64,000 nucleotides of DNA, taken from the NCBI GenBank assembly GCA_913061475.1, contig CAJXUN010000001.1, forward strand, positions 124,001 through 188,000, written 5' to 3'. Below are positions 23,371 to 40,355 of the stretch, in pieces. A model generated the notes under the pieces. It was not told where the DNA came from and made no database searches. It saw only the letters and a program-made list of their open reading frames with translations. Positions within the stretch are counted from its first letter, which is position 1. Each line of letters opens with the position of its first letter. The DNA comes from an uncultured Colwellia sp. GTDB lineage: Bacteria > Pseudomonadota > Gammaproteobacteria > Enterobacterales > Alteromonadaceae. The translations under genes were made by a program, and so were the position numbers.

Positions 23371-24810
23371 CTATTTTTTGCCTAATAGAGTAAAAATTTT
23401 CTTTGCAATGTCGGTGTTATCTTGAAAGCCAGTAAACATCTCACTGCCTTTACCAAAGGCAAAGACCGGAACATCTATTGCGGTATGCGTACCCGAAGGG
23501 CTAATAGAGCCCCAACCGGTATTGGTTTTCACATCAATTATTTTTGTAATCACATTCAGTACTGACTGATAAGGCTTAGGCGCTCTTTTGCCTTTTTTTG
23601 CGTCACTAGTTAATGAATTAAACTGTTCTATTATCTCATGGTCAAGCAATTTAGCTTGCGCTAAATTCTCGTTATCTATTTCAGTAATTTTAAATGACAG
23701 CAAATCACTTACTTGTTCTCTTGATAATTCATTAGCAGTAACCTTTTTGGCGATGGTTTCTGGTGACATAGTCATGGTGCGTAAAAACTCAGGTTGCCAA
23801 AGATATTTACTATTGATATCGGGGTTTGAACGTGCCGTTTTCTTGCCAATGGTTAAGCCACCGGTACTATGATCAGCTGTGATCACCACTAACGTATCTG
23901 GATGTTTCTCAACATAGCTTTCAAGGTATTCAATAGTTTTAGCGAAGTCGTCCATTTCAGCCATGGCGGCAGCAATATCTCGCGCATGCCCAGCGTAATC
24001 AATTTGGCTGCCTTCAACTAACATAAAAAAGCCGTCGGTGTTTTCTAATTGCTTCGTCGCGGCTTTGGTCATCATCGATAAACGATGTTTATTGCTGTCA
24101 TCTAATGCCCAAGGTAGGTTAGTTTTATCAAACAAACCTAAAACGGGTTTATTTTTAGGGATTGAATCTATTTCACTATATTTATCAAGATAATGAAATC
24201 CTGATGCAACAAATTCATCGACAAGGTTTCTATTTTCACGAATGAAATATTTCCAGCCGCCACCTAAATATAAATCCGCTTTGATGCCGTCATCAAGGTA
24301 ACTGTCAGCAATTGCGTCATAGTTATAGCGATGAACATTGTGCGCTAAATATGAGGCAGGTGTCGCGTGATTTATCTGCACCGTCACCACTACACCCGTT
24401 TTTTTACCGATTTCTTTAGCATATTCCAAAACCGTTTCAATTGGTTTTCTGTTGATATCTAAACCGATTGCATTATTATAAGTTTTAATACCGGTTGATA
24501 AGGCGGTAGCACTCGCTGCAGAGTCGGTAATGTAGCCTGATTCAGGTGCCGGATAGGTGCTACTGGTACCTTTGAAATGACGATCAAAAACTGTTTGTTC
24601 TATTTCCGGCGTTTTTGGGTCGTCATTATAATAACGGTAAGCGCTGGTGTAAGCAGGCCCCATGCCGTCACCCACCACCATAATAATATTCTTCGGCATA
24701 TTATCTGCAATGGTTATAGCAGGCGCTGTTTCGATATTATGCGCGGCTTGGAGCTGGCTACATGATAATATCAATAGCGAAGTTAATAACGTAGGTACAA
24801 ATTTTTTCAT
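23371..24810 (-). CDS. Exported alkaline phosphatase
   Basis: A 479-residue alkaline phosphatase that releases phosphate from monoesters such as nucleotides outside the cytoplasm. The signal peptide ends near ...LQA (residue 22); a Cys at 17 leaves lipoprotein processing possible. Metal ligand Asp48 (VVGDGMG), nucleophile Ser97 (YITDSAASA), EGSQIDYAGHA and ITADHSTGGL are all present. It is the last gene of the RutR-like/nuclease/phosphatase operon (87 bases after the nuclease), pointing to nucleotide dephosphorylation. No Pho box was recognised. Confidence 0.92.
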   Translation of the reverse strand: MKKFVPTLLTSLLILSCSQLQAAHNIETAPAITIADNMPKNIIMVVGDGMGPAYTSAYRYYNDDPKTPEIEQTVFDRHFKGTSSTYPAPESGYITDSAASATALSTGIKTYNNAIGLDINRKPIETVLEYAKEIGKKTGVVVTVQINHATPASYLAHNVHRYNYDAIADSYLDDGIKADLYLGGGWKYFIRENRNLVDEFVASGFHYLDKYSEIDSIPKNKPVLGLFDKTNLPWALDDSNKHRLSMMTKAATKQLENTDGFFMLVEGSQIDYAGHARDIAAAMAEMDDFAKTIEYLESYVEKHPDTLVVITADHSTGGLTIGKKTARSNPDINSKYLWQPEFLRTMTMSPETIAKKVTANELSREQVSDLLSFKITEIDNENLAQAKLLDHEIIEQFNSLTSDAKKGKRAPKPYQSVLNVITKIIDVKTNTGWGSISPSGTHTAIDVPVFAFGKGSEMFTGFQDNTDIAKKIFTLLGKK

Positions 24811-24897
24811 GTTTATTTCTGCTCTATTTACTCGATAAATATAATGACTTGAATCAGCTAATAGTTAGCTATTGTTTTTTGTTTAGCTTTTAACGGT

Positions 24898-26115
24898 TTA
24901 TTTTTTAACGTCTTGTACTTTAAATGTTACATCTACCCAAACTAAACGGTGATCTGACGAGGCAGCACGATCTTTTATTAAACGAAATTCTGCTTGGTTT
25001 TTCTTAGGCCAAAAAATGCCTGAGTCAAGCACGTTTAATTGCGCTTGAGCAGGTAAAACATAATCGGCTCGCATGCCCCAAAATGCGGTGTGGTACTTGG
25101 CATTTGGATTATCTATTCTGTGTAATTTACCGCCTTCGCTGCTTGGCTTAGGGTCAATAACACGCGGATGGTGGATTAAACGATTTATACCTGCTTTGAT
25201 GGCATTTCCGTCAATGGCATCAGCATTTAAATCACCTAAAATAACAAAGGCTTTGTCTTGAGCTAAACCACCAAATTGCTTGTTGTCATCATAAATATAG
25301 CTGGCAGCGCTCGGTGTTAGGTAATCAATCCAAAAACGTAATTCATCAAAATTTCGTTTGCCGTTTCTATCTTCGGGTCCGTCAAACACCGGCGGTGTAG
25401 GGTGACTCGCTAATACATGTAATTCATTGCCATTGACGTTTACCGGAATGTCCCAGTGAGACTTGGACGAGAGTCGAAAATTATTCCACGCTTGTTTGCT
25501 ATACCAAGGGCTATTCGATGCTTCATTTATCGGCACTAACGCATTGGGCATATCGCGCCATTTAAATTGTTGAAAGGTGCGAATCTTATCTTCAACAATA
25601 GGATATTTTGACAAAAGCGCCATGGCATAATGACCAGAAAAATGGCCGTAACCATAGGCATCGTTGGGCAGTTCACCAACTTTTTGGTCGTTATTTAAGT
25701 CGTAACCTGTAGCAACTCCGGTATTCACCGGCCCTTGATAAAAATACGGGTAGCTAACAGCGTTATTACCTTGTTGGCTTTTGGCTAAGTAGTCATTTAA
25801 AAAAAGCTTGAGTGATTGATGACTATCATCATTACCATCAAATTCATTTAAGAGAATAATATCAGGATTTACTCGTTGAATAATTTCAGCGATATTTTTG
25901 ATTTGCTGATGATCTTGTGTCAAAGCAATAGCGAGTTCGTTACCTTTGACAGTCACTTCTTTACCAGCTTCTGTTGGTAAGTAATTTAACGCTTCCATAC
26001 TAACGTTGAAGGTCGCAATGCGTAAATTTAATGGTGTTTGATTAGCTGTTTCTGACATAGCAATACCTGAATAAACCAACAATGCGCTTGACAATATACC
26101 TGTAAATACATTCAT
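24898..26115 (-). CDS. Secreted endonuclease/exonuclease/phosphatase-family protein
   Basis: A 405-residue protein of the EEP (DNase I-like) fold. The signal peptide ends near ...GIAMS (residue 21). Catalytic-type motifs are RIATFNVSME (about residue 32), IILLNEFDGN (metal Glu, about 91), ILGDLNADA (about 291) and SDHRLVWVD near the C-terminus. The substrate could be DNA, nucleotides or another phosphodiester. The operon with a RutR-like regulator and an alkaline phosphatase favours nucleic acids. It starts 13 bases after the regulator gene. Confidence 0.85.
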   Translation of the reverse strand: MNVFTGILSSALLVYSGIAMSETANQTPLNLRIATFNVSMEALNYLPTEAGKEVTVKGNELAIALTQDHQQIKNIAEIIQRVNPDIILLNEFDGNDDSHQSLKLFLNDYLAKSQQGNNAVSYPYFYQGPVNTGVATGYDLNNDQKVGELPNDAYGYGHFSGHYAMALLSKYPIVEDKIRTFQQFKWRDMPNALVPINEASNSPWYSKQAWNNFRLSSKSHWDIPVNVNGNELHVLASHPTPPVFDGPEDRNGKRNFDELRFWIDYLTPSAASYIYDDNKQFGGLAQDKAFVILGDLNADAIDGNAIKAGINRLIHHPRVIDPKPSSEGGKLHRIDNPNAKYHTAFWGMRADYVLPAQAQLNVLDSGIFWPKKNQAEFRLIKDRAASSDHRLVWVDVTFKVQDVKK

Positions 26116-26128
26116 TTTGAATCTTCTC

Positions 26129-26761
26129 CTACTTTAAACCACAACCGCGTAAGATAAAATCGGTTAAAAATTCGGTAACTTGAGTCATATCGTCTTCTTC
26201 GTAATCTGCACGATTCATAATGGTGAGTATTTGTTGTTCAAAATCAGCATAATGTTGAGTGGAAGACCAAATTAAGAAGATGAGCTTTACGGGATCAACA
26301 CTTTTCATTTCACCACTATCGATCCAAACCTGAAACACTTTCGCTTTTTCTCTTACCCACTGGCGTAAATAAGTTCTCGCAAATTCTTTTAAATGTAATG
26401 CGCCTTGGATAATTTCCATGGCATAAATTTTTGAGGCTTGTGGATGTTCAAAAGACATTTTGACTTTCGCTGCAATAAATTTTTCAATCGCAACAACAGG
26501 TCCATCATTAATATCAAGTTCACCAATACCTTGGTCCCAAGTATCTAATGTTAACTGTAAAACTGCATGGTAAATATTTTCTTTATTTTTAAAGTAATAC
26601 AAAACATTTGCTTTCGGCAGGCCGGCAGTGTCCGCAATAGATTGTACGGTTGCGCCTTTATATCCTTGCAAAATAAACTCTTTTTGCGCTGATGCTAGAA
26701 TAACTGCTTCACTTCTAGCTCTAATGCTTCCTTGCTTTTCAGTGGTGGTATTGTTGCTCAC
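26129..26761 (-). CDS. RutR-like TetR-family regulator
   Basis: A 210-residue TetR regulator starting at GTG with AAAGG upstream. The HTH spans about residues 35-55 (TVQSIADTAGLPKANVLYYF). The C-terminal domain closely recalls E. coli RutR, the uracil/thymine-sensing regulator (HPQASKIYAMEI, VKLIFLIWSSTQHYADF). RutR binds TTGACCANNTGGTCAA, and matching sites occur in this window before pyrimidine salvage genes. It is first gene of the nuclease-phosphatase operon and divergent from a TonB receptor. True orthology to RutR is likely but unproven; no rut operon is present here. Confidence 0.85.
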   Translation of the reverse strand: MSNNTTTEKQGSIRARSEAVILASAQKEFILQGYKGATVQSIADTAGLPKANVLYYFKNKENIYHAVLQLTLDTWDQGIGELDINDGPVVAIEKFIAAKVKMSFEHPQASKIYAMEIIQGALHLKEFARTYLRQWVREKAKVFQVWIDSGEMKSVDPVKLIFLIWSSTQHYADFEQQILTIMNRADYEEDDMTQVTEFLTDFILRGCGLK

Positions 26762-27100
26762 GTGAATAACCTTTATTTTTATATGCTGTTATTTAATTAG
26801 CGTTAGTTTACGGCGCTAATGTTACATTTAATTGCACTTATTTTCTTTTTTATAATAAACCGGCATTTTTATATAGAAGTTTCAGGTGGTTTTATAAATT
26901 TAGTAGCGTATTTAGACCCGAAAATTAACCATTATTTTTTAATAATCAACTAGTTTAATTTAATTTGATTTATAAGGCACTGTTTTAATAAGCTTTGTAA
27001 TAAATAATTCTATATTTTCTAAGCTGTTTTTCTAATGGTTAATTTATTTTTTTTGATACAGCCCTTTATAAACTTATCCAAAATCATACTTTATTTTATC

Positions 27101-27116
27101 TTGACCATATGGTTTG
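27101..27116. promoter_or_regulatory. Degenerate RutR-type box
   Basis: TTGACCATATGGTTTG matches 13 of 16 positions of TTGACCANNTGGTCAA: the left half is perfect and the right half reads TGGTTTG. It lies midway between the RutR-like gene (about 340 bases) and the TonB receptor start (about 335 bases). Confidence 0.5.
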
Positions 27117-27395
27117 TTTTTATGATTTTTTGTTATACATAATCAACTAATTCAGCCTTATAGTTATAAGTGATTTTTTGGCTTGTTTGAAACTTACTGT
27201 TATCTTTTTGTTATTGTTTACTTTTACTACACTTCTTTTGTTTGATTCTTTGGTTTTGATGAAAAATTTAAAATAGCAAAATATTGCTTGTTAAATTTTG
27301 TAATGAAAATGTAAGAAAACTCTGTTTTAATTTCACCTGAAATAAGCTTAAAAAATAATAATTAGATCAAAAATTAGCTAAGTGAAACTTAAATT

Positions 27396-27419
27396 AAACA
27401 TTTTACAAAACATTTTACA
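27396..27419 (+). repeat. Tandem 12-bp repeat before the TonB receptor gene
   Basis: AAACATTTTACA occurs twice head to tail, followed by a partial third copy, about 20 bases before the ribosome binding site. It is low-complexity and may be slippage. Confidence 0.6.
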
Positions 27420-27451
27420 AAACAAAATTTAACTTAATACCAAGGAATAAT

Positions 27452-30400
27452 ATGATGAAAACTCATCGTCTCTCACGCATTACTGGCGCAGTTGTACTTG
27501 CGCTTGGATTGTCAACATCGGCCATGGCTGACGATACATCATCGTCAATGCGAGGCAACATTTTAACCACAAGTGGTAATATTGTAACAGATGCAACAGT
27601 CACCATAACTCACGAACCTTCTGGTACTAGTAAAACTTTAAAAGTTAATGAGAGTGGTGCTTTCTCTGCGAGAGGCCTTCGCGTTGGTGGTCCATATACA
27701 GTAACTATTGATTCTGATGTTTATGCTGATAAAACGCTTGAAGGCATTTATATTACCCTTGGTGACGTATTTCGCATCAATGAAGTACTACAAGATTCAA
27801 ATATTGAACGTATTGCTGTAACAGGTTCTTCAACATTTTTTGACCCTTCAAAAGGCTCTTCAAGTGTATTTAGTGGTGATGATTTAACTAAGTCAGCGGC
27901 ATTTAGCCGTGATTTAAAAGACATTGTCCGTCAAAACCCTATGGCTGTTGTAGGTAATGACGGTAATACATTATCGTTGGCAGGTAGTAACCCTAAGTAT
28001 AATAGTTTAGCGGTTGATGGTGTTAACCTTAACGATGATTTTGGTTTAGCTGGTAACGGTTACCCAACTGAGCGTTCACCCATTGCTTTTGATTCTATCG
28101 CTCAAATCAGCGTGGCAATTGCGCCATTCACCGCTAAAGAAGGCGGTTTTTCTGGTGGTAAAGTCAGCGTAGTAACTAAATCAGGTACTAACGAATTTCA
28201 CGGTTCAATGTTTATTGAACAAGCAAAAGATGCTTGGGCTGGTACACCAGAAACTGATGACGGCGATAAAATCGACTTAAAATTTGATGAAGAAACGTGG
28301 GGCGCAACGTTTGGCGGTCCTATCATCAAAGATAAGTTATTCTTCTTTGCATCATACGAAACTTTTGAGTCACCAAGTTCGGTTGATAAAGGTCCATCAG
28401 ATTCAAATGTCGCGAACAAAGTTAGCCAAGTGTCTCAAGCAGAAGTTGATCGCGTAGTCGGTATTGCTAAAGATAAATATGGTTTTGACGCGGGTAGCTG
28501 GGATGCCTCAATTCCACTAGAAGATGAAAAATATTCATTGAAGTTAGATTGGAACATTAATGACGATCATCGTGCTTCATTTGCCTATTCTCATGGCTTT
28601 AGTAATAGCGCCGGTAACCAAGGCGGTGGTAGATCAGATGATTTATACCTTTCGTCTCATTGGTACAATCGCTCTAACGAATTTGATACCTATGTTGGTC
28701 AATTGTTCTCGTATTGGACTGAAGAATTTTCAACAGAAGTTAAAGTATCGAAAAAAGAGTCTGTTAACGGTCAAGTACCCCTAGGTGGTTACGATTTCGG
28801 TGAAGTAAAAATCGATACGGTTAATGGCGGCGAAATTATGCTTGGCGCTGATGACAGTCGCCATGCCAATGTATTAACCAACGAAACTTTTCAAGTGCGC
28901 GTAAGTGGTGAATACTTATACGAAGAACATGCGATTTCTTTTGGTTGGGAATACGAAGAAGTTGAGGTTTATAACCTCTTTATGCAGCATAATTTAGGTT
29001 CTTGGTATTTCAACAGCATTGACGACTTTGAAGCGGGTCAAGCGGATTGGTTTGAATACCAAAACAACCCAAGTCTCAACCGTGATGACGCAGCTGCTGA
29101 ATTTGCCCTTGAAAAGCATGCTTTTTACCTTGAAGATAGCTGGGACGTAACTGATTCACTTAACCTAACTTATGGTTTACGTTATGAAGTTGATGTTAAT
29201 GATGATGCGCCTAACTTTAATCAAAGCTTTTACGACCGTTATGCCTTTGCGAATAATTCAACCCTTGATGGTTTAGACGTATTGCTACCTCGTTTAGGTT
29301 TTACATGGACTGCAACGGATGACTTAACCATTCGTGGTGGCGCTGGTTTGTATAGTGGCGGCCGTCCAAACGTATTTATCTCAAATGCGTTTAGTAATGA
29401 CGGCTCTAGAATTGCCTTATATCGTAGCTTTGGCGATAGCGTAGCCGCGAATACATTTTTACAAGATGCCAATCCAAATGGCATTCCACAGCATGCGCAA
29501 GATCAAATTGCACAATCTGAGTTAGGTGGACCAAATTCTAATATTGATGCTATTGATCCAAACTTTGAAATTCCGACTACTTGGCAATACAGTTTAGCAG
29601 CAGATTACGTTGCCGACCTTAGTAGCATAGGTTTAGGCGATGATTGGCGCATCAGTGGTGAAGTGCTTTATAAAGATATTAATAAAGATATGGCATGGTC
29701 TGATCTTTCACGCACATTAGATACCTCAAAAGGTAATAATGGTTTAACTGTTGAAGGTCGTCCAATTTACACCTTCGCTGATCCTGACCGAGATGCTCGT
29801 GATGTATTGCTAACAAATACTTCAGGTGGCCATACGTTAATCGAAACATTGAGTATTGCGAAAAATTGGCAAAATGGCTTCAAAGCTAACTTTTCTTATA
29901 CGCATTCAACAATTCGTAATCGTATAGACGCTACCGGTACTTCATCAAACACTGCTTATAACTTTAACCCAGTGATTGATCCTGAAAATCCAGGCGTAGG
30001 TACATCATCATATCAAGTTAAACATCGTTTAACGTTTAACCTTTCATATAACACAGAAATGTTTGAAGGTTATAACACCGGTATGCACATGTTCTGGGAA
30101 CGCAAATCAGGTCGTCCATATAGCTATTTACTTGGCTATAACAACCGTGACGGTTTGTCAGGTAACTTAGACCTTACAACGGCTAACTTAGCATACATTC
30201 CAACAAGTGCTAGCGATGGCGCTGTTGATTTTGAGAATGGCCTAAGTTATGACGAGATTATGGCTCAGTTAGATAAAGCCGGTATTAGCTCTAATGGTGG
30301 TTACCTTGAAAGAGGTTCTCATACAGCACCTTGGACAACGACTATGGATTTACGCTTTGAACAAGAAATCCCAGGTTTCTTAGAAGGGCATAAAGGTTTG

Positions 30401-30628
30401 TTCTACATCGATATTAAAAACGCATTAGCTATTTTTGATGAAAGTGCAGCACGCGTTTATCAACTACCATTTGGCCAATCTTCATCAGATATACTAGATT
30501 ATAGTATCAATGATGCTGGTCAATATGTGTATGAAGATGCAAACATTAGTGAAGGTGAGTCTCCGGTTGAATTTAAAGACCGTGAGTCTACTTGGAGCAT
30601 GAAAATTGGTGTTAAATACACTTTCTAA
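27452..30628 (+). CDS. TonB-dependent receptor with N-terminal carboxypeptidase-regulatory-like domain
   Basis: A 1058-residue outer-membrane receptor. It has a signal peptide (about residues 1-26, ...STSAMA), a CarboxypepD-regulatory-like Ig fold (about 33-110), a plug (about 125-245) and a long beta barrel ending in the aromatic MKIGVKYTF. This Oar-like architecture is common in marine Alteromonadales and usually imports oligomers or nutrients. AGGA precedes the ATG. It is divergent from the RutR-like/nuclease/phosphatase operon and upstream of cdd-deoA, so nucleic-acid fragments or nucleosides are plausible substrates. That substrate is inferred, not seen. Confidence 0.9.
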   Translation: MMKTHRLSRITGAVVLALGLSTSAMADDTSSSMRGNILTTSGNIVTDATVTITHEPSGTSKTLKVNESGAFSARGLRVGGPYTVTIDSDVYADKTLEGIYITLGDVFRINEVLQDSNIERIAVTGSSTFFDPSKGSSSVFSGDDLTKSAAFSRDLKDIVRQNPMAVVGNDGNTLSLAGSNPKYNSLAVDGVNLNDDFGLAGNGYPTERSPIAFDSIAQISVAIAPFTAKEGGFSGGKVSVVTKSGTNEFHGSMFIEQAKDAWAGTPETDDGDKIDLKFDEETWGATFGGPIIKDKLFFFASYETFESPSSVDKGPSDSNVANKVSQVSQAEVDRVVGIAKDKYGFDAGSWDASIPLEDEKYSLKLDWNINDDHRASFAYSHGFSNSAGNQGGGRSDDLYLSSHWYNRSNEFDTYVGQLFSYWTEEFSTEVKVSKKESVNGQVPLGGYDFGEVKIDTVNGGEIMLGADDSRHANVLTNETFQVRVSGEYLYEEHAISFGWEYEEVEVYNLFMQHNLGSWYFNSIDDFEAGQADWFEYQNNPSLNRDDAAAEFALEKHAFYLEDSWDVTDSLNLTYGLRYEVDVNDDAPNFNQSFYDRYAFANNSTLDGLDVLLPRLGFTWTATDDLTIRGGAGLYSGGRPNVFISNAFSNDGSRIALYRSFGDSVAANTFLQDANPNGIPQHAQDQIAQSELGGPNSNIDAIDPNFEIPTTWQYSLAADYVADLSSIGLGDDWRISGEVLYKDINKDMAWSDLSRTLDTSKGNNGLTVEGRPIYTFADPDRDARDVLLTNTSGGHTLIETLSIAKNWQNGFKANFSYTHSTIRNRIDATGTSSNTAYNFNPVIDPENPGVGTSSYQVKHRLTFNLSYNTEMFEGYNTGMHMFWERKSGRPYSYLLGYNNRDGLSGNLDLTTANLAYIPTSASDGAVDFENGLSYDEIMAQLDKAGISSNGGYLERGSHTAPWTTTMDLRFEQEIPGFLEGHKGLFYIDIKNALAIFDESAARVYQLPFGQSSSDILDYSINDAGQYVYEDANISEGESPVEFKDRESTWSMKIGVKYTF

Positions 30629-30648
30629 TATCTAATAAAAAATGAACT

Positions 30649-30679: not shown

Positions 30680-31108
30680 CGCAAAATTTCTTACATATAT
30701 TGCGTCGTTTGATGAGCGTATTAATTTGTCCTTGGTATAAGCTCTATATCGTAATGTCGGATTTTTCTCGTAACAGCGCCAGCTGTAAGGATGCAGTTGG
30801 TCTATCGTGAATACAAATCTGTAAGTATGCAAAAGCATGCAATGGATAGCCAACTAGTGGTTAGATAAACTTACCTAGATTCACTAAAAACTTATGACAT
30901 TGGCAAAATAAGCTATCTGTAACTTATGGTTTAGTCGTTTATTACTGAAAATATATATTATCGCTTTTAGCGCATATCTGTTATTCAGAGTTAGGGTTAT
31001 ATTAACGGCGTTAATCGCGATATTTTGTAATTTTTAAGTTGCTTTTCTCGCAGTGTTTTATTACGATAGTTAATAAGTTGACCATTTGGTCAGTTAAAGG
31101 GTTTGATA
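30680..31108. other. Upstream region of cdd-deoA
   Basis: This 429-base stretch has no supported gene. Its right end contains the RutR-type box at 31078-31093 and the cdd ribosome binding site. The rest shows only small hairpins. Confidence 0.6.
31078..31093. promoter_or_regulatory. RutR-type operator before cdd-deoA
   Basis: TTGACCATTTGGTCAG matches 15 of 16 positions of the E. coli RutR box and contains the perfect palindrome TGACCA-TT-TGGTCA. It ends 15 bases before the cdd ATG, immediately before the AAAGGG ribosome binding site, so bound protein would block transcription or initiation. Confidence 0.82.
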
Positions 31109-31528
31109 ATGTCAAATATTAAAGATAACGAAATTTTAGCGCTTGTTGATGCCGCGAAAGACGGCTTCACAAAAGCTTATGCACCCTATAGTAATTTTCA
31201 TGTCGGTGCCGCTGCGTTAACTGTTAACGGTAATATCGTCAAAGGTTGTAATGTTGAAAATGCGTCGTATGGCTTAACGGTTTGTGCCGAGCGTAACTGC
31301 TTAGCACAAGGTGTGATTTCAGGCGAGCAAGCGTTTTCTGCGATAGTTATTTATACCAATCAAGATAAGCTAACGCCGCCTTGTGGCGCTTGTCGACAAG
31401 TCATTGTTGAATTTTTAGCACCCGAGGCATTAGTTATGGCGGTTAACCATAACAACGAAAGAAAGCAATGGACAGTTAATGAATTATTACCTGATGCTTT
31501 TACGCCAAAAGATTTACTTGAAAAATAA
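31109..31528 (+). CDS. cdd: Cytidine deaminase (short tetrameric type)
   Basis: Zinc enzyme that deaminates cytidine and deoxycytidine to uridine and deoxyuridine. ATG 31109 with AAAGGG 8 bases upstream gives 139 residues. Zinc motifs CAERN (about residues 52-56) and PCGACRQ (about 86-92) are intact. The length places it with the short Bacillus/eukaryote-type homotetramers rather than the about 294-residue E. coli dimer. It is 12 bases upstream of deoA in one operon, behind a RutR-type operator. Confidence 0.95.
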   Translation: MSNIKDNEILALVDAAKDGFTKAYAPYSNFHVGAAALTVNGNIVKGCNVENASYGLTVCAERNCLAQGVISGEQAFSAIVIYTNQDKLTPPCGACRQVIVEFLAPEALVMAVNHNNERKQWTVNELLPDAFTPKDLLEK

Positions 31529-31540
31529 GGATTAAAATTA

Positions 31541-32857
31541 ATGTTATTACCACAAGAAATAATTCGCACCAAACGTAACGGTGGTTCACTCTCCCAAGAA
31601 CAAATACAATATTTTGTTGATGGTTTAGTAACATTAAATTTTAATGATGCTCAAGCAGGGTCGATGGCAATGGCGATTTTTCTCAAAGGCATGGAAACGC
31701 GTGAAATTATCGATTTTACCATGGCGATGAAAAATTCAGGTGATGTATTGTCTTGGCCAGAGTTAGATGGCCCAGTGGTTGATAAACATTCAACGGGTGG
31801 TGTTGGTGACAAAGTTAGCTTTATGCTGGCGGCAATTGTTTCAGCATGTGGTGCTTATGTACCTATGATCTCTGGTCGTGGTTTAGGCCATACCGGTGGT
31901 ACATCTGATAAGTTAGAAAGTATCGCTGGCTTTAATGTTCAACCCAGTATTGGTGACTTTAAGCGTATAGTTAAAGATTTAGGTATGGCTATTATTTCGC
32001 AAACTGATAATTTAGCGCCTGCAGATAAACGTCTTTATGGTATCCGTGACATTACCGCAACGGTGGAATCTATTCCGTTGATCACTGCTTCTATTTTATC
32101 TAAAAAATTGGCGGCAGGACTTGATTCATTAGTCATGGACGTCAAAGTGGGTAATGGCGCTATGATGTCAAATATTGACGATGCTACGGCATTAGCACAA
32201 AGCATTGTTAATGTAGCCAATGGTGCCGGTGTACCGACACAAGCTATTATTACTGATATGAACCAAGTGCTTGGCGCTACGGCGGGTAATGCCTTAGAGA
32301 TGGCTGAAACGGTGAAATATTTAAATGGTAGCTTGCGTGAGCCGCGTTTACACGCGGTTGTGGTTTCACTTGCAAAAGCTATGCTGGTGAGTGCAAAAGT
32401 GGCTGCAAATGAAGACGAAGCATTGAAAAAAATCAATGCTGTTTTAGCTTCTGGCGCTGCTGCAGAGCTTTTCGGTAAAATGATCCATGCGCTAGGTGGG
32501 CCAAGTGATTTCATGGAAGATCCATGGCGTTCAATGCAGCGTGGAGATGTTATTGTAGATATACTTGCCAAAGATCACGGCTATATCAACGCTATGCAAA
32601 CACGTGATATTGGTATGGCCGTTGTCGGCTTAAAAGGTGGACGAACTGCCAATGGTCAACAAATAGATCACAGTGTTGGCTTCGATCGCATTTTACCGAC
32701 AGGCACACGAGTTAATCGCGGAGATATCGTGGCACGTGTCCACGCCAGAGATGAAAGCTCAGCATTAAATGCCAGTCAACAATACCTTAGCGCACTATCA
32801 ATTAGCGAACAACAAAGTGAAGAGCCTCCGGTTATTTATCAAACCATTTCAGCTTAG
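31541..32857 (+). CDS. deoA: Thymidine phosphorylase
   Basis: Phosphorolyses thymidine and deoxyuridine to the base plus deoxyribose-1-phosphate. The 438-residue protein has the glycosyltransferase family 3 signature around KHSTGGVGDKVS (about residues 84-95) and MISGRGLGHTGGTSDKLES (about 110-128), with length equal to E. coli DeoA. Deaminated products of Cdd feed it directly; its sugar product goes to DeoB and DeoC encoded nearby. It follows cdd by 12 bases and ends at a strong terminator. Confidence 0.96.
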   Translation: MLLPQEIIRTKRNGGSLSQEQIQYFVDGLVTLNFNDAQAGSMAMAIFLKGMETREIIDFTMAMKNSGDVLSWPELDGPVVDKHSTGGVGDKVSFMLAAIVSACGAYVPMISGRGLGHTGGTSDKLESIAGFNVQPSIGDFKRIVKDLGMAIISQTDNLAPADKRLYGIRDITATVESIPLITASILSKKLAAGLDSLVMDVKVGNGAMMSNIDDATALAQSIVNVANGAGVPTQAIITDMNQVLGATAGNALEMAETVKYLNGSLREPRLHAVVVSLAKAMLVSAKVAANEDEALKKINAVLASGAAAELFGKMIHALGGPSDFMEDPWRSMQRGDVIVDILAKDHGYINAMQTRDIGMAVVGLKGGRTANGQQIDHSVGFDRILPTGTRVNRGDIVARVHARDESSALNASQQYLSALSISEQQSEEPPVIYQTISA

Positions 32858-32888
32858 GTTTTAACAACTAGGGCTGGACTGCAGAGAC

Positions 32889-32970: not shown

Positions 32971-33549
32971 CTAATTCCAAACAAGCGCTTTAAAATGCTT
33001 GCGGCATAATGACTCATAACGTTCATTACCGCCAACTTCGATTTGTTCGCCACCTTTAACGGCATTGCCATGCTCATCACAACGCATAACAAAATTGGCT
33101 TTTTTACCACAATGACAAATGGTTTTTAATTCGACTAATTTATCTGCCCAAGCAAGCAGGGCAGCACTACCAACAAAGGTTTCACCAAGAAAGTCTGTTC
33201 TAATGCCATAAGCCAGTACAGGAATTTTTAATTCATCGACAATATCAGTTAACTGCTTAACTTGTGGTTTTGTCAGAAACTGAGCTTCGTCAATCAGTAT
33301 ACAAGCAATTTTACCATCTTGGAGTTGCTGTGTTACTTCATCAAACACGTTAGTGTTGTTGTCAAATAAGCGTGCGTCAGCATGGATACCTAAACGTGAT
33401 GACACCTTACCTTTAGCAAATCTATCGTCGATATGTGCGGTAAATAATAAGGTCTCTAAACCGCGCTCACGGTAATTATATGAAGACTGTAATAAATGGG
33501 TCGATTTACCGGCATTCATCGTGGAATAATAAAAATATAATTGTGCCAT
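32971..33549 (-). CDS. tdk: Thymidine kinase
   Basis: Type II thymidine kinase: ATP-dependent phosphorylation of thymidine to dTMP. The 192-residue protein has the P-loop [13 protein letters not shown] (about residues 9-21), the DEAQF switch (about 88-92) and zinc ligands [13 protein letters not shown] plus a late Cys. It is the last gene of the udk-nupC-deoC-tdk unit, 48 bases after deoC. Confidence 0.96.
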
Positions 33550-33597
33550 CGCTAATTTTATATCCTAGTTATCGTTACTGGAAACAGTTTATTTTGA

Positions 33598-34371
33598 TTA
33601 ATAGCTTGTTGGATCAGCCGTTTTACTCGTAGCACCTAAGGTGTTTAATAAGTTGGTTAATAAGCTACTGGCACCAAATCTAAAGTTGGCTTTAGTAGCC
33701 CAATCAGCACCTAAAATATCACTGGCTAGATCAAGATAAACCTTAGCATCTTCAGCGTTTTTAACGCCACCGGCGGGTTTAAAACCAACCTGAGTATTTT
33801 TATCTTTGATCACTTTTAACATGAGTTCGGCTGATTTTGGTGTGGCATTTACGGCTACTTTACCTGTTGAGGTTTTAATAAAGTCAGCGCCTGCTGCAAT
33901 ACAAATTTCACTGGCTTTGGTGATCAGTTGATCGGTTTTTAGCTCACCGGTTTCAATAATCACTTTAAGTTGTACACTGCTGCCACAGGCTTTCTTACAG
34001 GCCTTTACTAATTCAAAGCCAACCTCTTCATTACCATTTATTAATGCGTTATACGGAAATACCACATCAACTTCATCAGCGCCGTAAGCAACCGCTGCTT
34101 TAGTTTCTGCAACGGAAATGTCGATATCATCATTGCCGTGAGGAAAGTTAGTCACGGTGGCAATTTTTATCTCAGGCGTGCCTTGCGCAACTAAAGTTTT
34201 TTTAGCTAGTGGTACAAAACGCGGAAAGATACAAATAGCGGCGGTGTTTCCACAGACTGATTTAGCAGTTGAACAGAGTTGAATAATATCATCGGCACTT
34301 TCAGTATCCGTCAAACTGGTTAAGTCCATCATATGAAGTGCACGTTGTGCGTAGTTTTCTAAGGTACTCAT
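33598..34371 (-). CDS. deoC: Deoxyribose-phosphate aldolase
   Basis: Class I aldolase that splits deoxyribose-5-phosphate to acetaldehyde and glyceraldehyde-3-phosphate. The 257-residue protein carries the Schiff-base lysine in [10 protein letters not shown] (about residue 165) and the second lysine in VGFKPAGG (about 199). It lies between nupC and tdk on the minus strand. A terminator-like hairpin separates it from nupC, so its transcription may be reduced by readthrough. Confidence 0.96.
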
Positions 34372-34399
34372 GATATGCCTCGTAATTTTAAAAGGTTTT

Positions 34400-34433
34400 A
34401 AAAAATAGCCTAGTACAGATGACTAGGCTTTTT
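34400..34433 (-). terminator. Intercistronic terminator between nupC and deoC
   Basis: AGCCTAGT (34407-34414) pairs with ACTAGGCT (34422-34429). On the minus strand a T tract follows, 29 bases after the nupC stop and before deoC. It likely tunes or separates downstream expression; the other strand also has a T run. Confidence 0.75.
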
Positions 34434-34457
34434 AGATAGTTTCAATAATTTTTAGCG

Positions 34458-35699
34458 TTATAAACTAACGAATACACCCGCTATAGCAGCACTCATTAAG
34501 TTTGCCATAGTTGCGGCCATCATGGCCTTCATACCCAAACGTGCAATGTCAGGACGTCGATTTGGCGCCATTGACCCTATACCACCCAATAAAATCGCAA
34601 TTGACGACAAGTTAGCAAAACCACATAAAGCAAAGGTAACAATAGCTTGGGTGGAAGGGGATAGCGTATCTTTGATTTCAACAAAGTTTACGTAGGCGAA
34701 AAACTCATTTACCACGATTTTTTGCCCGATAAAGCTTCCTGCTTGCAACATTTCTTCAAATGGTACACCAATAAGAAAAGCAAAAGGAGCAAAGATATAG
34801 CCAAGCATCCACTCAATGGTAATGCCTTCAAAGCCTAATAAATTACCAAAACCCGATACCATAGAGTTTAGTAAGGCGATAATAGCGATAAAGGCAAGTA
34901 GCATAGCACCGACATTGACTGCTAATTTTAATCCTGAAGCTGCGCCAGTAGCGGCTGCATCAATGACATTAGCAGGTTTATCGCCTTGATCCATTTCGAC
35001 ATCGGTATAGTCATCACTAATGGTTTCTGTTTCAGGCATAAGTAATTTTGCCATTAGCAAGCCACCTGGCGCAGCCATAAATGATGCTGCAATTAAATAT
35101 TCAAGTTTTACACCTAAGCCAGCATAACCCGCAAGTATAGAACCGGCGACTGAAGCTAAACCACCAACCATGATGGCAAAAAGTTCAGATTGACTCATTT
35201 TTGCTATGTAAGGGCGGATAACCAATGGCGCTTCAGTTTGACCGACAAAGATATTAGCGGTTGCCGATAGTGATTCAGGTTTCGATGTTTTCAATAATTT
35301 TTGTAAACCACCACCGATAATTTTTACCACCCATTGCATAATGCCTAGGTAATAAAGCACAGCGATGAGCGATGAAAAGAAAATAATAACCGGTAAAACG
35401 CGAATAGCAAAAACAAAACCAACACCATTGTCAAACATGGCATCTGTGCCTAAGCCGCCAAATAAAAAGCTTATTCCCGCTTGCGCACTGTTGATGACCT
35501 GCTGAACACCGTTGGTCACTGAGCCTAATACATCTTTACCAAAAGGTACGTACAGTACAAATGCACCGAGTAAAATTTGTAATGAAAATGCAAACCCTAC
35601 GGTTCGCCAGTTAATTGCTTTACGGTCTTTTGATAAAAAGAACGCCAATGCTAATAGCGCGAAAATGCCGATGACACCTCGAAGTGCACTTAATTCCAT
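34458..35699 (-). CDS. nupC: NupC-family concentrative nucleoside transporter
   Basis: Inner-membrane cation-coupled nucleoside importer (CNT family). The 413-residue protein has about ten membrane segments and the family motifs FVFAIRVLPVIIFFSSLIAV near residue 93, GQTEAPLVI near 154 and ALCGFANLSSIAILLGGIG near 358. GAGG and AGG precede the ATG. It is downstream of udk (57 bases) in the nucleoside salvage operon and would deliver substrates for Cdd, DeoA, Udk and Tdk. Confidence 0.95.
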   Translation of the reverse strand: MELSALRGVIGIFALLALAFFLSKDRKAINWRTVGFAFSLQILLGAFVLYVPFGKDVLGSVTNGVQQVINSAQAGISFLFGGLGTDAMFDNGVGFVFAIRVLPVIIFFSSLIAVLYYLGIMQWVVKIIGGGLQKLLKTSKPESLSATANIFVGQTEAPLVIRPYIAKMSQSELFAIMVGGLASVAGSILAGYAGLGVKLEYLIAASFMAAPGGLLMAKLLMPETETISDDYTDVEMDQGDKPANVIDAAATGAASGLKLAVNVGAMLLAFIAIIALLNSMVSGFGNLLGFEGITIEWMLGYIFAPFAFLIGVPFEEMLQAGSFIGQKIVVNEFFAYVNFVEIKDTLSPSTQAIVTFALCGFANLSSIAILLGGIGSMAPNRRPDIARLGMKAMMAATMANLMSAAIAGVFVSL

Positions 35700-35756
35700 A
35701 CCTACCTCATATTTTGTTTATTTTATTATTATTATATTTTTTTTGTAAACTGTTTG

Positions 35757-36443
35757 TTAAACGATGACTCGCCTTGCCATCAATTGACGAATTTTTGCTT
35801 TTAACATTTCAATAGCCATTCTATTTTTACCGCCGCGGGTGACAACAATATCCGCGAAGGCTTTATTGGGTTCAATGTATTGGTGATACATAGGACGGAC
35901 AGTGGTTAAATACTGTTCAGTGATCGATTCGATGCTACGTGAGCGTTCAATAGTATCTCGATTAATTCTGCGAACAAGGCAAATGTCCAACGGAGTATCA
36001 ATATAAATTTTGATGTCAAACTTGTCACGTAGCTCTTTATTCGAAAATAAAAGAATACCTTCAACTAAAATTATCGGTGTCGGTGATAAATGCTGAGTTT
36101 CATCTAAACGGGTATGGGTTTTATAGCAATAAGTAGGAATGTCTACTTCTATACCAGCGGTTAATTGGGTTAAATGTTGCGACAATAAACTGTGTTCAAA
36201 TGCGCTAGGGTGATCGTAATTGGTTTTTATACGCTCTTCCATCGACAGATGGGATTGACTCTTATAGTAAGAATCTTCTTTCATGATAACAATGCCACTT
36301 GGTCCGAGCTCGGGTAGCAGTTCATCGTAAATAGTTTGCGCAAAAAGTGATTTTCCAGATGCAGAGGCACCGGTTACCGCAATAATCGTCGGTTTATTGG
36401 TTTGCAAAATGTTAGCCTTTCTCAATTTATCACTTCTATCCAC
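35757..36443 (-). CDS. udk: Uridine kinase
   Basis: Phosphorylates uridine and cytidine to UMP and CMP. The 228-residue protein has the P-loop GASASGKS (about residues 25-32), EDSYYKSQ, the DHPSAFE segment and RRINRDTIERSRS near residue 155, matching the Udk family. It is the first gene of the minus-strand salvage operon. A RutR-type box lies about 75 bases upstream. Confidence 0.93.
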   Translation of the reverse strand: MDRSDKLRKANILQTNKPTIIAVTGASASGKSLFAQTIYDELLPELGPSGIVIMKEDSYYKSQSHLSMEERIKTNYDHPSAFEHSLLSQHLTQLTAGIEVDIPTYCYKTHTRLDETQHLSPTPIILVEGILLFSNKELRDKFDIKIYIDTPLDICLVRRINRDTIERSRSIESITEQYLTTVRPMYHQYIEPNKAFADIVVTRGGKNRMAIEMLKAKIRQLMARRVIV

Positions 36444-36516
36444 TATTTTATATTATCTAGCTTAGATATTTAGAAGTAAAACAGTCATCTATTATTATGT
36501 TAAATATTATCATAAC

Positions 36517-36532
36517 TTGACCATGTGGTCAC
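36517..36532. promoter_or_regulatory. RutR-type operator upstream of udk
   Basis: TTGACCATGTGGTCAC matches 15 of 16 positions of the RutR box; TGACCA-TG-TGGTCA is a perfect inverted repeat. It is 74 bases upstream of the udk start and about 235 bases upstream of deoB. Confidence 0.8.
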
Positions 36533-36706
36533 ATTTATTAACGTTTTTTTTATAATTTTAATCGCTATCTTTAAAAAAGATAATGTTACCATAAGAGCTT
36601 ATTACTAAAGGTCTGTCGACGATGTTATATAAGTAATTTTGCGCTAAGTTGGCTTTTATCAATTGCCATTTACTATAATTAGGTGCTAATGTAATCTTAC
36701 TTTAAC

Positions 36707-36722
36707 TTGACTCTTGTGTCAG
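36707..36722. promoter_or_regulatory. Degenerate RutR-type site upstream of deoB
   Basis: TTGACTCTTGTGTCAG keeps the outer TTGAC and GTCA arms of the box with the same overall spacing (TGAC-N6-GTCA) but has lost the inner CA/TG. It is 45 bases upstream of the deoB start. Confidence 0.4.
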
Positions 36723-36766
36723 GTTTTATTTGAGACTATTTTGAATTTAATATTTTAGGAATAAAA

Positions 36767-37984
36767 GTGGCAAAAGCAATTGTTTTAGTTATTGATAGTT
36801 TAGGTATAGGGCATGCGCCTGACGCAGCTGATTTTGGTGATGTATCGGCTAACACATTTGGTAATCTTGCCATTGCTTTTCATCAGCATACGGGAAGAGC
36901 TTTTAAAATTCCCAATCTATCATCGCTTGGTTTAGTTCATGCCTGCGAACAAGCTTCAAATACAAGTTTTCCTTATGAAGGAGAGCCACCAACGAAAGGT
37001 GTGTATGGCTATGCTGCTGAAATAAGTAGTGGCAAAGATACCCCAAGCGGTCATTGGGAGATGATGGGCGCACCGGTACTATTTGATTGGGGATACTTCA
37101 ACAATAAAAAGCAAAGTTTTTCAGATGAGCTAGTTAAAAAAGTAAACCATGCTACCAATTCTACTGGCTTGTTGGGTAACTGCCACGCATCGGGTACTGA
37201 TATTATTGCAGCCTTAGGTGAAGAGCATATTAAAAGCGGTTTACCTATTTGTTATACGTCTGCAGATAGCGTTTTCCAAGTTGCGGCCCATGAAGAACAT
37301 TTTGGCTTAGATAACCTATACACTTATTGTGAACAAGTCAGAGAGTTGCTAGATAAAGAGAACTTAAATATCGGCAGGGTCATTGCTAGACCATTTATCG
37401 GTAACGATAAAGCCAGTTTTACACGTACCGGTAATAGACGGGATTATTCCGTGTTACCACCGGCTAAAACCGTATTAGATAAATTATGTGCTGCTGGTGG
37501 CCATGTTATTAGTGTGGGTAAAATAGCGGATATATTTGCGCATCAAGGTATTAGTGAAAAAACTAAAGCTACCGGGTTACCTGCACTGATAGATGCGACA
37601 ATTGAGCATATTAATACGGCTAAGGACAACAGCTTAATCTTCACTAATTTGGTCAATTTTGATCAAGATTTTGGCCACCGAAGAGACCCTATTGGTTATG
37701 CCGAAGCGTTGGAGTATTTGGATATTCGCCTAAACGATATTTATCAGGCGATGGCTGATGACGATATTTTATTTATTACCGCAGATCATGGCTGTGATCC
37801 AACATGGCCAGGTAATGACCACACACGCGAGTATGTGCCTGTTGTTGCATTTCATAAACAGGTACGATCTGTTAATATTGGCGAAAGAGGTACGTTTGCT
37901 GATATTGGTCAAACCATCGCTGAATTATTTAAATTAGATAAAATGCCTTACGGCACAAGCTTTTTATCTGATCTTGATCTTTAA
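36767..37984 (+). CDS. deoB: Phosphopentomutase
   Basis: Interconverts (deoxy)ribose-1-phosphate and -5-phosphate, linking DeoA to DeoC. The 405-residue alkaline-phosphatase-superfamily protein shows the N-terminal metal Asp (VIDSLGIGHAPDA), GKDTPSGHWEM near residue 86, and late metal ligands ADHGCDPTWPGNDHTREYVP near residues 338-357. The start is GTG with AGGA upstream. It is divergent from udk and followed in the same direction by a TonB receptor gene with no terminator between them. Confidence 0.95.
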   Translation: MAKAIVLVIDSLGIGHAPDAADFGDVSANTFGNLAIAFHQHTGRAFKIPNLSSLGLVHACEQASNTSFPYEGEPPTKGVYGYAAEISSGKDTPSGHWEMMGAPVLFDWGYFNNKKQSFSDELVKKVNHATNSTGLLGNCHASGTDIIAALGEEHIKSGLPICYTSADSVFQVAAHEEHFGLDNLYTYCEQVRELLDKENLNIGRVIARPFIGNDKASFTRTGNRRDYSVLPPAKTVLDKLCAAGGHVISVGKIADIFAHQGISEKTKATGLPALIDATIEHINTAKDNSLIFTNLVNFDQDFGHRRDPIGYAEALEYLDIRLNDIYQAMADDDILFITADHGCDPTWPGNDHTREYVPVVAFHKQVRSVNIGERGTFADIGQTIAELFKLDKMPYGTSFLSDLDL

Positions 37985-38093
37985 AAGTAATAAAATTGTA
38001 TCATAATTTAGCAGACCATAGCGGTGTGCTTAAGTTAGAATAGAAAAATTCAAAATTTCAACAAAACATAAACAGTTCTTGGGAGAGTACTTA

Positions 38094-40355
38094 ATGAATG
38101 TTTTTAAAAAAACGTCGCTTGCACTTAGTGTAAACGCGGCAATTTTTGCGTCTATAGCTGGCATATCAAGTTCAGCCATCGCACAAGATAATACTGACAA
38201 AGTTGTTGGCATTGAAGTTATCGAAGTGACTGCACGTAAACGTACAGAAAATGTTAAAGATGTACCTATTTCAGTGTCAGCTTTAACACCGAAAAAATTG
38301 GAAGTGTTAGGTTCTTCAGGTATGGACGTAAGAGCCTTATCTGGCAAAGTACCTAGCTTATTGATTGAGTCTTCTTTTGGTCGTACATTTCCACGTTTTT
38401 ATATCCGTGGTCTAGGTAATACTGATTTCGATCTACTAGCCTCGCAACCGGTTTCTCTTATTTATGATGACGTTGTTTTAGAAAATGCCTTAACTAAAGG
38501 TATGCCAATGTTTGATATTGAGCGTGTCGAAGTTTTACGTGGACCTCAGGGAACGTTGTTTGGCCGTAATACGCCAGCGGGTATTGTTAAAGTTCAATCG
38601 AAAAAACCAACACAAGATTTCGATGCTAACATCTCTGGATCATACGGTAGCTTCAGCTCAACTGATTTCCGTGTTGCTGTTGGTGGTGGTTTAACTGATA
38701 CCGTATCAGCACGTGTTGCATTATTACAACAAGACCGTGATGACTGGATAGACAACAAAGCGCCTGGTTTTGAACAAAAAGATCAGCTAGGTGGTTACAG
38801 TGAAACGGCTGGCCGTTTACAATTATTGTGGGAACCCAATGACGATTTCTCAGCGTTATTTAATTACCACTTTAGAAACGCAGAAGCTGACGCTCGAATA
38901 TTTAGAGCAAATATCATAAAACCAGGCACTAACAAGTTAGTTGATGACTTTGACCGTGAAACTGTTTTTCATGATGCAGCGTCTCGTAACAACCAAACAG
39001 TTGATATGAAAGGTGCAAGTTTAAAAATAGAATATAATTTTGGTGATTATACCTTAACATCGGTTACTGGCCATGAGTCAGCTGAAATGTTTTCTGTAGG
39101 TGACATCGATGGCGGCTACGGCGCAGCATTTTTACCGTCAGGTGGCGGACCAGGACTTATTCCATTCCCATCTGAAACTGGCGCAAGAATGCCAGATCAT
39201 AAGCAGTCAACTCAAGAAGTTCGCATTGCCAGTAATGATCTCGGTAAACTAGATTATCAATTTGGTTTTTTCTTGTTTGATGAAGACTTAACCATTAATA
39301 ACTTAAGCTTTGATACTTTTGGTGGCGGTGTGCAAAACGGCATTGCTATCCAAAACATGGAAACGTCAGCTTGGGCTATTTTTGCATCACTCGATTATGA
39401 AGTTTCAGAGAAGTTAAGCATTAACGGTGGTTTACGCTATTCAGATGATGAACGTAAATGGGACGGCGAACTTGTTCAATCTCCTTTTGGTGCACCTAGT
39501 TTTAGTGAAAGTAATGATGTAGAAGATTCACAGGTTAGTGGTGATTTAAGTGCATCATATGTACTTAATGACGAAACGAATGTTTACGCTCGACTTGCTC
39601 GTGGTTACCGCGCGCCAAGTATCCAGGGTCGTAGCTTATTATTCTCGGCTAACTCAACAACTGCAGACTCAGAAACAGTAGATTCTGTAGAAACGGGTTT
39701 TAAATCAGTCTTTGCTGAAAATACAGCGCGTGTTGACGCCTCAATCTACTACTATGAAGTTAGCGATCAACAATTAACTGCAGTTGGCGGCACGGGTAAC
39801 GTTGCAAGCTTATTGAATGCTGATAAGTCAGTTGGTTACGGTTTTGAAATTGATTCAGAGTACTTTGTTACACCTGACTTGGTGCTTGCTGGTAGCGTAA
39901 GTTATAACCACACTGAACTAAAAGATGCTAATGTAGCTGTGCCTGGTTGTGGCGGCGGTTGTACCGTAACTGATCCATTAAACTCAGATGGTTTGGCCTT
40001 GATTGACGGTAATTCATTACCACAGTCGCCAGAGTGGATTAGTAATTTAAGTGTCCGTTGGACCAAAGAAATTGCTGATGGTGAATTCTATATTTATACC
40101 GATTGGTCTTACCGTAGCGAAGTTAATTTCTTCTTATATGAATCGACAGAATTTACTGGCGATGCGTTATTAGAAGGCGGCGTTCGTGTGGGTTACGAAT
40201 GGTACACAGATGGTGCAGAGTACGAAGTTGCTTTATTTGGTCGTAATATTACCGATGAAGAACAGCTTACTGGTGCTATCGATTTTAATAACTTAACAGG
40301 TTATGTAAATGAACCTCGCTTTTGGGGTGTAGAGTTCAAAGCGAACTTCTTCTAA
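38094..40355 (+). CDS. TonB-dependent receptor downstream of deoB
   Basis: A 753-residue outer-membrane receptor. ATG 38094 is chosen over an upstream TTG because GGAG lies 8 bases before it and a clean signal peptide follows (cleavage near ...SSAIA). It then has a TonB-box-like stretch (IEVIEVTARKR), a plug with RGPQGTLFGRNTPAGIV near residue 145 and a barrel ending in ANFF. It is of the non-siderophore receptor type common in marine Alteromonadales. Position 109 bases after deoB and downstream of RutR-type sites suggests nucleoside or nucleotide uptake. The substrate is inferred from context only. Confidence 0.88.
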   Translation: MNVFKKTSLALSVNAAIFASIAGISSSAIAQDNTDKVVGIEVIEVTARKRTENVKDVPISVSALTPKKLEVLGSSGMDVRALSGKVPSLLIESSFGRTFPRFYIRGLGNTDFDLLASQPVSLIYDDVVLENALTKGMPMFDIERVEVLRGPQGTLFGRNTPAGIVKVQSKKPTQDFDANISGSYGSFSSTDFRVAVGGGLTDTVSARVALLQQDRDDWIDNKAPGFEQKDQLGGYSETAGRLQLLWEPNDDFSALFNYHFRNAEADARIFRANIIKPGTNKLVDDFDRETVFHDAASRNNQTVDMKGASLKIEYNFGDYTLTSVTGHESAEMFSVGDIDGGYGAAFLPSGGGPGLIPFPSETGARMPDHKQSTQEVRIASNDLGKLDYQFGFFLFDEDLTINNLSFDTFGGGVQNGIAIQNMETSAWAIFASLDYEVSEKLSINGGLRYSDDERKWDGELVQSPFGAPSFSESNDVEDSQVSGDLSASYVLNDETNVYARLARGYRAPSIQGRSLLFSANSTTADSETVDSVETGFKSVFAENTARVDASIYYYEVSDQQLTAVGGTGNVASLLNADKSVGYGFEIDSEYFVTPDLVLAGSVSYNHTELKDANVAVPGCGGGCTVTDPLNSDGLALIDGNSLPQSPEWISNLSVRWTKEIADGEFYIYTDWSYRSEVNFFLYESTEFTGDALLEGGVRVGYEWYTDGAEYEVALFGRNITDEEQLTGAIDFNNLTGYVNEPRFWGVEFKANFF

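Follow-up and report, generated by a model that had tools for sequence, protein, structure and literature searches.

In E. coli, the regulator RutR controls rut and carAB (PMC10891134). RutR regulons predicted in Proteobacteria (RegPrecise; PMC5343134) are distributed in a mosaic fashion, hold 10.9 target genes per genome and use taxon-specific motifs; they are labelled pyrimidine catabolism there, unlike the DNA scavenging considered here. For the extracellular DNA use of Shewanella and Vibrio, a paper on ExeM describes the molecular and regulatory mechanisms as poorly understood (PMC6085458), and both new nucleoside-related regulators predicted in Shewanella belong to the Crp family (PMC3223726). 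Here, a 64,000-nucleotide stretch from an uncultured Colwellia sp. (contig CAJXUN010000001.1, positions 124,001 to 188,000; the window) was analyzed. At positions 23371–40355 it carries a TetR-type regulator gene (tetR), genes for a DNase-I-fold protein, an alkaline phosphatase and two TonB-dependent receptors (TonB1 and TonB2), and the nucleoside genes cdd, deoA, udk, nupC, deoC, tdk and deoB. It is likely, judging from the sequence, that a RutR-subfamily repressor acting on TTGACCANNTGGTCAA-type boxes controls a regulon for the use of extracellular DNA and nucleotides.

The box TTGACCANNTGGTCAA is conserved and co-occurs with the regulator, which is predicted to bind it. The cluster, the boxes, their conservation and co-occurrence, and the residues of the pocket and recognition helix were seen in the sequence itself. 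Among the papers listed in searches of open full text, with RegPrecise and subscription journals outside the search, none described a RutR-family regulon for DNA scavenging or such a cluster; a RutR regulog for Colwellia may have been computed earlier. As a prediction, a new wiring of known parts in marine Colwellia-type bacteria is considered solid.

Three boxes were retained in the window:

31078..31093, plus strand: strong predicted box TTGACCATTTGGTCAG, 15 bp before the cdd ATG (31109)
36517..36532, plus strand: strong predicted box TTGACCATGTGGTCAC, between udk and deoB
27101..27116, plus strand: weak predicted box TTGACCATATGGTTTG, between tetR and TonB1; its right half-site stays weak across the genus

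With a position weight matrix (PWM) built from 41 sites, these were the top three sites of the window (28.1, 23.5 and 16.3 for 31078, 36517 and 27101, respectively), and the next best site scored 9.2. Taken alone, the window contained 6 matches at ≤3 mismatches against 2.96 expected, and 6 of 100 shuffles also reached 6. Since this count was unremarkable, significance was judged by comparative tests, and on that comparative evidence the boxes of the window are not products of chance.

The first-pass annotation had proposed two near-perfect and two degenerate boxes. Both near-perfect ones (31078 and 36517) proved to be conserved, with the core TGACCANNTGGTCA present before cdd and between udk and deoB in 16/16 regulator-bearing genomes of the genus. 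Among the degenerate ones, that at 27101 was conserved in weakened form. The other had been proposed without coordinates, and the single candidate for it (about 36707–36722, before deoB) was not supported. Apart from the window itself, this candidate was one of the top two sites in just 1 of 18 other udk-deoB regions; it was absent from the window's 12 highest PWM scores and was not counted. A terminator scan marked it as a hairpin, but the scan also marked the genuine box at 36518 and was not decisive.

In the 17 genomes of the genus, the core occurred as 40 perfect 14-mers, from 0 to 4 per genome, compared to 3 for the reversed control. Their contexts were cdd (16), udk/deoB (16), pgi (5), exeM (1), add-talB (1) and probably oad (1), the last lying 540 bp before oadA. 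The only genus genome with zero perfect 14-mers, G007, was 66% complete and was without the regulator. At loci in situ, the core matched at 12/12 positions in 16/16 cdd and 13/13 udk-deoB loci of the genus. The udk-tdk/deoB-TonB2 block was relocated in G009, G010 and G014, and the box was retained in 3/3 of these.

Across 31 clusters, a 12/12 match was found in 22/28 TonB1-cdd regions (24/28 at ≥11/12) and in 17/19 udk-deoB regions. At ≥11/12, five control palindromes scored 0/28 and 0/19, respectively, vs. 24 and 17 for the box, and over the three promoter regions together they reached 11/12 a single time, in a tetR-TonB1 region and by the reversed pattern. In the tetR-TonB1 region, the box matched at 12/12 in 4/31 and at ≥10/12 in 28/31 clusters; at 10/12, the controls were found in 5/31 (reversed) and 1/31 (scramble) of these regions and in 1/28 cdd regions. 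The right half-site of the tetR-TonB1 box was the defective GGTTTG in 14/16 genus loci, and conservation of the defect suggests that the weakness of this operator is deliberately maintained. No box at ≥11/12 was observed in the deoA-tdk (n = 22), deoB-TonB2 (n = 17) or phoA-DNase (n = 28) regions.

The regulator was surveyed in 98 genomes, including the own genome of the window, and an ortholog, defined by 62–100% identity (a cut chosen on the match list), was found in 31. Perfect boxes averaged 2.19 per genome with the regulator (n = 31) vs. 0.58 without it (n = 67; Mann–Whitney U test, p = 1.7e-9), and control patterns 0.29 and 0.34, respectively. For the family outside the genus, the values were 1.87 (n = 15) and 0.70 (n = 27; p = 0.004); these statistics ignore kinship between genomes. 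The boxes of the regulator-less G034, G035 and G052 were not explained by a RutR-like gene. In G034, which has no regulator ortholog, two perfect boxes 65 bp apart (3055 and 3120 of L301) lie upstream of an ABC-transporter-like gene (assigned by eye). In G039, whose RutR-like proteins are only 37–41% identical, a perfect box (L310, 3038) precedes a PfkB-family kinase gene and an inosine-uridine nucleoside hydrolase gene.

The gene content and arrangement of the cluster agreed with the first description when open reading frames and Pfam/TIGRFAM profile matches were compared: a tetR, DNase-I-fold and phosphatase operon, a divergent TonB receptor gene, and salvage genes. The features were as follows:

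26129..26761, minus strand: tetR, RutR-fold TetR-family regulator and proposed repressor (PF08362 and PF00440)
24898..26115, minus strand: secreted DNase-I-fold (EEP) hydrolase, signal peptide by eye
23371..24810, minus strand: exported PhoA-type alkaline phosphatase (PF00245), signal by eye
27452..30628, plus strand: TonB-dependent receptor 1 (TonB1), divergent from the tetR operon (CarboxypepD_reg, plug and OMP_b-brl_4)
31103..31528, plus strand: cdd, cytidine deaminase, likely start 31109
31541..32857, plus strand: deoA, thymidine phosphorylase (TIGR02643 above cut-off)
32971..33549, minus strand: tdk, thymidine kinase (PF00265)
33598..34371, minus strand: deoC, deoxyribose-phosphate aldolase (TIGR00126 above cut-off)
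34458..35699, minus strand: nupC, CNT-family nucleoside transporter (TIGR00804 above cut-off)
35757..36443, minus strand: udk, uridine kinase (PF00485)
36767..37984, plus strand: deoB, phosphopentomutase (TIGR01696 above cut-off)
38079..40355, plus strand: TonB-dependent receptor 2 (TonB2)

The tetR operon on the minus strand is tight, with gaps of 13 and 87 bp, and the other transcription units are cdd-deoA (31103–32857, plus), udk-nupC-deoC-tdk (36443–32971, minus) and deoB-TonB2 (36767–40355, plus). The cluster is flanked on one side by a pyridoxal phosphate enzyme of Cys/Met metabolism and a family B DNA polymerase, and on the other by DAHP synthase, a kinase-pyrophosphorylase and a phosphoenolpyruvate-utilising enzyme.

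The cluster is conserved across Colwelliaceae. In the stretches from 30 relatives (each ≤20 kb, some ending at contig ends), the DNase-I-fold gene was next in line to tetR in 29/30, phoA was present in 29/30, the divergent TonB receptor gene in 30/30, cdd-deoA in 27/30 and udk in 20/30; three of the ten udk misses were genus genomes with the relocated block. Among the best 80 of 562 named loci, 45 fell in the TetR clade, with the DNase-I-fold gene in 43/45 and phoA in 40/45; these counts overlap with those from the 30 stretches in several genomes and are not independent. A few clade loci bear other NCBI family names (Psychrosphaera, "Alteromonadaceae bacterium"). Outside the clade, the nuclease-phosphatase cluster was found beside the regulator in 0/35 loci, some of the stretches being incomplete; L290 gave a single 40% DNase-like match 8 kb away.

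In the DNase-I-fold protein, N36, N89-E90, H237, D294, N296 and D387-H388 were invariant among 19 aligned sequences. A fold search with its model (mean predicted local distance difference test, pLDDT, 74.7) scored nucleases and sphingomyelinases alike, so the fold does not fix the substrate, and phmmer against solved structures gave no match at E 0.01. DNA would be the substrate by inference, and the TonB receptors are predicted, through guilt by association, to import products of DNA digestion.

At its one fixed locus (27452–30628; L046–L060), TonB1 was represented by five allele classes in 16 genus genomes, with <65% identity between classes (median pairwise 45%, lowest 39%), while the adjoining tetR was 89–99% identical. 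The phoA gene beside it formed two classes, distributed differently from those of the receptor. This pattern suggests repeated exchange of TonB1 at a fixed locus, for which phages or bacteriocins may have been the selective force.

The regulon is probably wider than the cluster, judging from boxes at genes for an ExeM-type nuclease and a phosphoglucose isomerase (pgi). The own genome contained 38 sites at ≤2 mismatches vs. 24 for the reversed control. Of the 36 sites outside the cluster, 35 were inspected, 31 lying inside reading frames and 4 between genes; most were noise-like, the meaningful ones being a pair at exeM (one of them in frame) and one at pgi.

The ExeM-like secreted protein comprises 1345 amino acids, with Endonuclease_1 and LTD domains (Pfam, first 920 residues) and a C-terminal DNase-I-fold part recognized by eye. 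In 7/7 orthologs of ≥80% identity, the own gene included, a non-coding upstream box at ≥11/12 was present about 220 bp before the match start (about 86 bp before the called start in the own genome) and perfect in G001. Fourteen loci were compared; in six, the match begins inside the protein and the promoter is out of view, and at G017 (58% identity) the best site was 10/12. In L107 (G000:C29), the two boxes at 831 and 1140 are 309 bp apart, one upstream and one coding, and both occur in 7/7 close orthologs; looping or a road-block by the pair is possible.

At pgi (PF00342), a box was located 144–161 bp upstream in 8/13 closest orthologs, and no box was found within 420 bp at 17 other phosphoglucose isomerase loci. 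Matches to this family numbered 2–5 per genus genome, some being fragments (G000:C30, C2, C3, C40; L187, L201), and of the 30 loci scored, the regulator box was confined to one orthologous group.

Further perfect boxes were observed in other Colwelliaceae. In G044, one preceded a DeoC-family aldolase gene followed by an aldehyde dehydrogenase-like reading frame, and another preceded an exported protein followed by an LTD-like reading frame (no Pfam match, named by eye). TonB1-like receptor genes beside udk-nupC carried perfect boxes in G023 (Pfam) and G055 (by eye). Two perfect boxes were without interpretable context (L292, inside a gene, and L293).

The regulator itself was compared with E. 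coli RutR, with which it shares 33–35% identity. It scored 166.8 bits in the RutR equivalog model TIGR03613, below the cut-off of 368, and 155.2 bits in PF08362 (TetR_C_3), above the gathering score of 25. For its AlphaFold model (mean pLDDT 81.7), Foldseek ranks 1–8 were all RutR structures, e.g., 4jyk and 3loc, with template modelling scores by query of 0.75–0.84 and 34–35% identity. The protein therefore has the RutR subfamily fold and, given the identity and the score below the equivalog cut-off, is not a RutR ortholog.

According to PMC10891134, E. coli RutR contacts uracil through W77, Y97, W167, Q171 and Q179', and a base through K52. In the 54 rows of the clade, W77, Q171, Q179 and K52 were present in 54/54 and W167 in 52/54, and K52 was also kept in 31/31 relatives outside the clade. 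The protein resembles the uracil- and thymine-responsive E. coli RutR (PDB 3loc, 4jyk) in fold, 16-bp palindrome, K52 and the pocket residues W77, W167, Q171 and Q179. It differs in its low identity, the Y97F replacement, a predicted regulon for DNA and nucleoside scavenging in place of rut and carAB, and a genus in which preA was not found. The clade was supported at 100/99. It fell among TetRs of Cellvibrionales, Oceanospirillales and others at 81/89, a placement that is not firm, the bootstrap not having settled. E. coli RutR lay apart from the clade on a long branch of unsure placement, and a search with it across the class gave matches in 4/185 genomes, too few for a better-rooted tree. 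A defence role for the TetR was rejected, with no PADLOC match.

In the proposed mechanism, where we infer repression, the effector, the substrates of the TonB receptors and DNA as the substrate of the DNase-I-fold protein, the regulon would comprise one or more secreted nucleases, the alkaline phosphatase, one TonB receptor, NupC, the salvage and catabolic genes cdd, deoA, udk, deoC, tdk and deoB and, less certainly, the ExeM-type nuclease and one phosphoglucose isomerase in the own genome. Secreted nuclease and phosphatase would turn DNA into deoxynucleosides outside the cell, NupC would bring nucleosides in, and cdd and deoA would release uracil, thymine and deoxyribose-1-phosphate. The sugar would pass through deoB and deoC to central metabolism, with pgi serving gluconeogenic flow. 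Uracil or thymine would most likely fill the Trp/Gln pocket and release the repressor, and breakdown products would thus induce more breakdown. The weak operator would leave the tetR-nuclease-phosphatase/receptor "scouting" genes leaky, and the strong operators would hold the intracellular genes off.

Several observations weigh against this scheme. Perfect 14-mers were absent from 4/31 regulator-bearing genomes and present at least once in 27/67 regulator-less ones, including one at udk in G052. The tetR-TonB1 box needs the support of conservation, since its PWM score of 16.3 compares to 14.7 in the reversed window. Because the second exeM box is inside the coding region, selection on the protein may be what preserves it. 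The regulon has a patchy edge: at pgi, 5/13 closest orthologs were without a box, and a divergent LysR-type gene also faced the box in 3/5 perfect cases; at add and oad, a box was present in one genome each. As for the effector, Y97, a water-mediated uracil contact in E. coli, was Phe in 50/54 and Ile in 4/54 clade rows, pocket residues were alike in purine-linked and pyrimidine-linked members, and the closest TetR relatives were purine-linked, with xanthine dehydrogenase genes as neighbours at the loci that were checked. The one pyrimidine degradation gene looked for, preA, was missing from the matches in 17/17 genus genomes (E ≤ 1e-60; rutA was not searched for); in its absence, free bases may accumulate and serve as natural inducers.

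The inducer of the same regulon and repressor could instead be a purine base such as hypoxanthine or guanine, or a different product of DNA such as deoxyribose phosphate, which we regard as unlikely while granting it real weight. The nearest relatives outside the clade by identity (44–56%, among the best 80 of 562 loci) are the TetRs of Cellvibrionales, Oceanospirillales and Halomonas relatives that adjoin xanthine dehydrogenase genes, and they share K52 and, beside several (e.g., L278), the same box. Of nine such loci read, four by Pfam and the others by eye, L257, L258 and L278 showed xanthine dehydrogenase domains and L260 an amidohydrolase. Phe at position 97 also occurred in 21/31 relatives outside the clade. 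Unlike in these relatives, no xanthine dehydrogenase gene was present among the cluster and flanking genes checked. The targets, moreover, are on the pyrimidine side: within 420 bp, boxes were found in 0/16 deoD promoters, which excluded deoD from the regulon, and in 1/17 add promoters, that of a second add copy in G003. In G055, a perfect box lies between preT-preA and a dihydropyrimidinase-like amidohydrolase gene. Because the targets are pyrimidine-biased and most pocket residues are kept, uracil or thymine is the likely effector.

It is very improbable that the reader of the boxes is a different RutR-like TetR, encoded beside urate/purine genes, with the cluster TetR acting only locally or at another site. 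The second RutR-like protein of the genus, beside a urate oxidase-type gene (L079), also belongs to PF08362, and in some purine-linked members the gene's own promoter contains this box (L306 and L307 in G058 and G024), which explains the box in these two regulator-less genomes. A third RutR-like TetR gene occurs in G006, G008, G009 and G010; in L078 (G006), its stretch contains two imperfect boxes and an adjoining urate-hydroxylase-like gene (by eye). The genus paralog is nevertheless probably not the reader: in its recognition helix, Arg/His replace the Lys/Leu found in both RutR and the cluster TetR, no box at ≤3 mismatches was found around it in L079 and L080 (20 kb) or L105 (8 kb), and the cluster boxes were kept in four genomes for which no such paralog was listed (G011, G012, G013, G015). 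RutR-like TetRs beside xanthine dehydrogenase genes whose own promoters bear a box of this kind (L306, L307, L278) apparently form a separate purine branch with the RutR motif.

The pairing of a nuclease with an alkaline phosphatase is common in Pho sets, and a weak PHO-like match lies at 27197, but a phosphate- or carbon-starvation set (PhoB, CRP/CytR) merely adjoining tetR is very improbable given conserved RutR-type boxes at the promoters, PHO-like matches near chance (7 vs. 4.2 expected; 14/100 shuffles reach 7), no CRP-like site at ≤2 mismatches in three promoters, and no match above the CytR cut-off of 436 bits, the best reaching 200.

For the RutR-subfamily regulon, the box scan and cluster comparison across Colwelliaceae proposed beforehand showed both to be conserved. 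The earlier idea of one regulator over hydrolysis, outer-membrane, NupC and salvage genes gained support from the boxes, with uracil/thymine sensing and receptor import still conjectural. A broader role than that of E. coli RutR was borne out by boxes over scavenging and salvage genes, probably also over the ExeM-type nuclease and pgi. The predicted system resembles the ExeM/Xds-type DNA use of Shewanella and Vibrio in its secreted nuclease, nucleotidase/phosphatase and nucleoside catabolism, with the ExeM-like multidomain nuclease as a predicted member in Colwellia.

The comparison suggests a TetR family that kept its DNA motif while its gene set changed, with the scavenging of polymers taking the place of base degradation. 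One repressor that recognizes a short, specific box would provide a marker for DNA-feeding bacteria and a testable regulon, which supplies candidate outer-membrane receptors for nucleic-acid fragments. We also entertain, tentatively, that a RutR-family repressor was captured from purine-base control in a Colwelliaceae ancestor and turned into a sensor dedicated to the breakdown of DNA. Such a repressor would link a leaky, weak-operator digestion and receptor module to strong-operator NupC, salvage genes and a dedicated phosphoglucose isomerase copy in a product-induced positive loop. If true, this system would do for nucleic acids what a polysaccharide utilisation system does for polysaccharides, and its outer-membrane receptor would be one that is exchanged rapidly.

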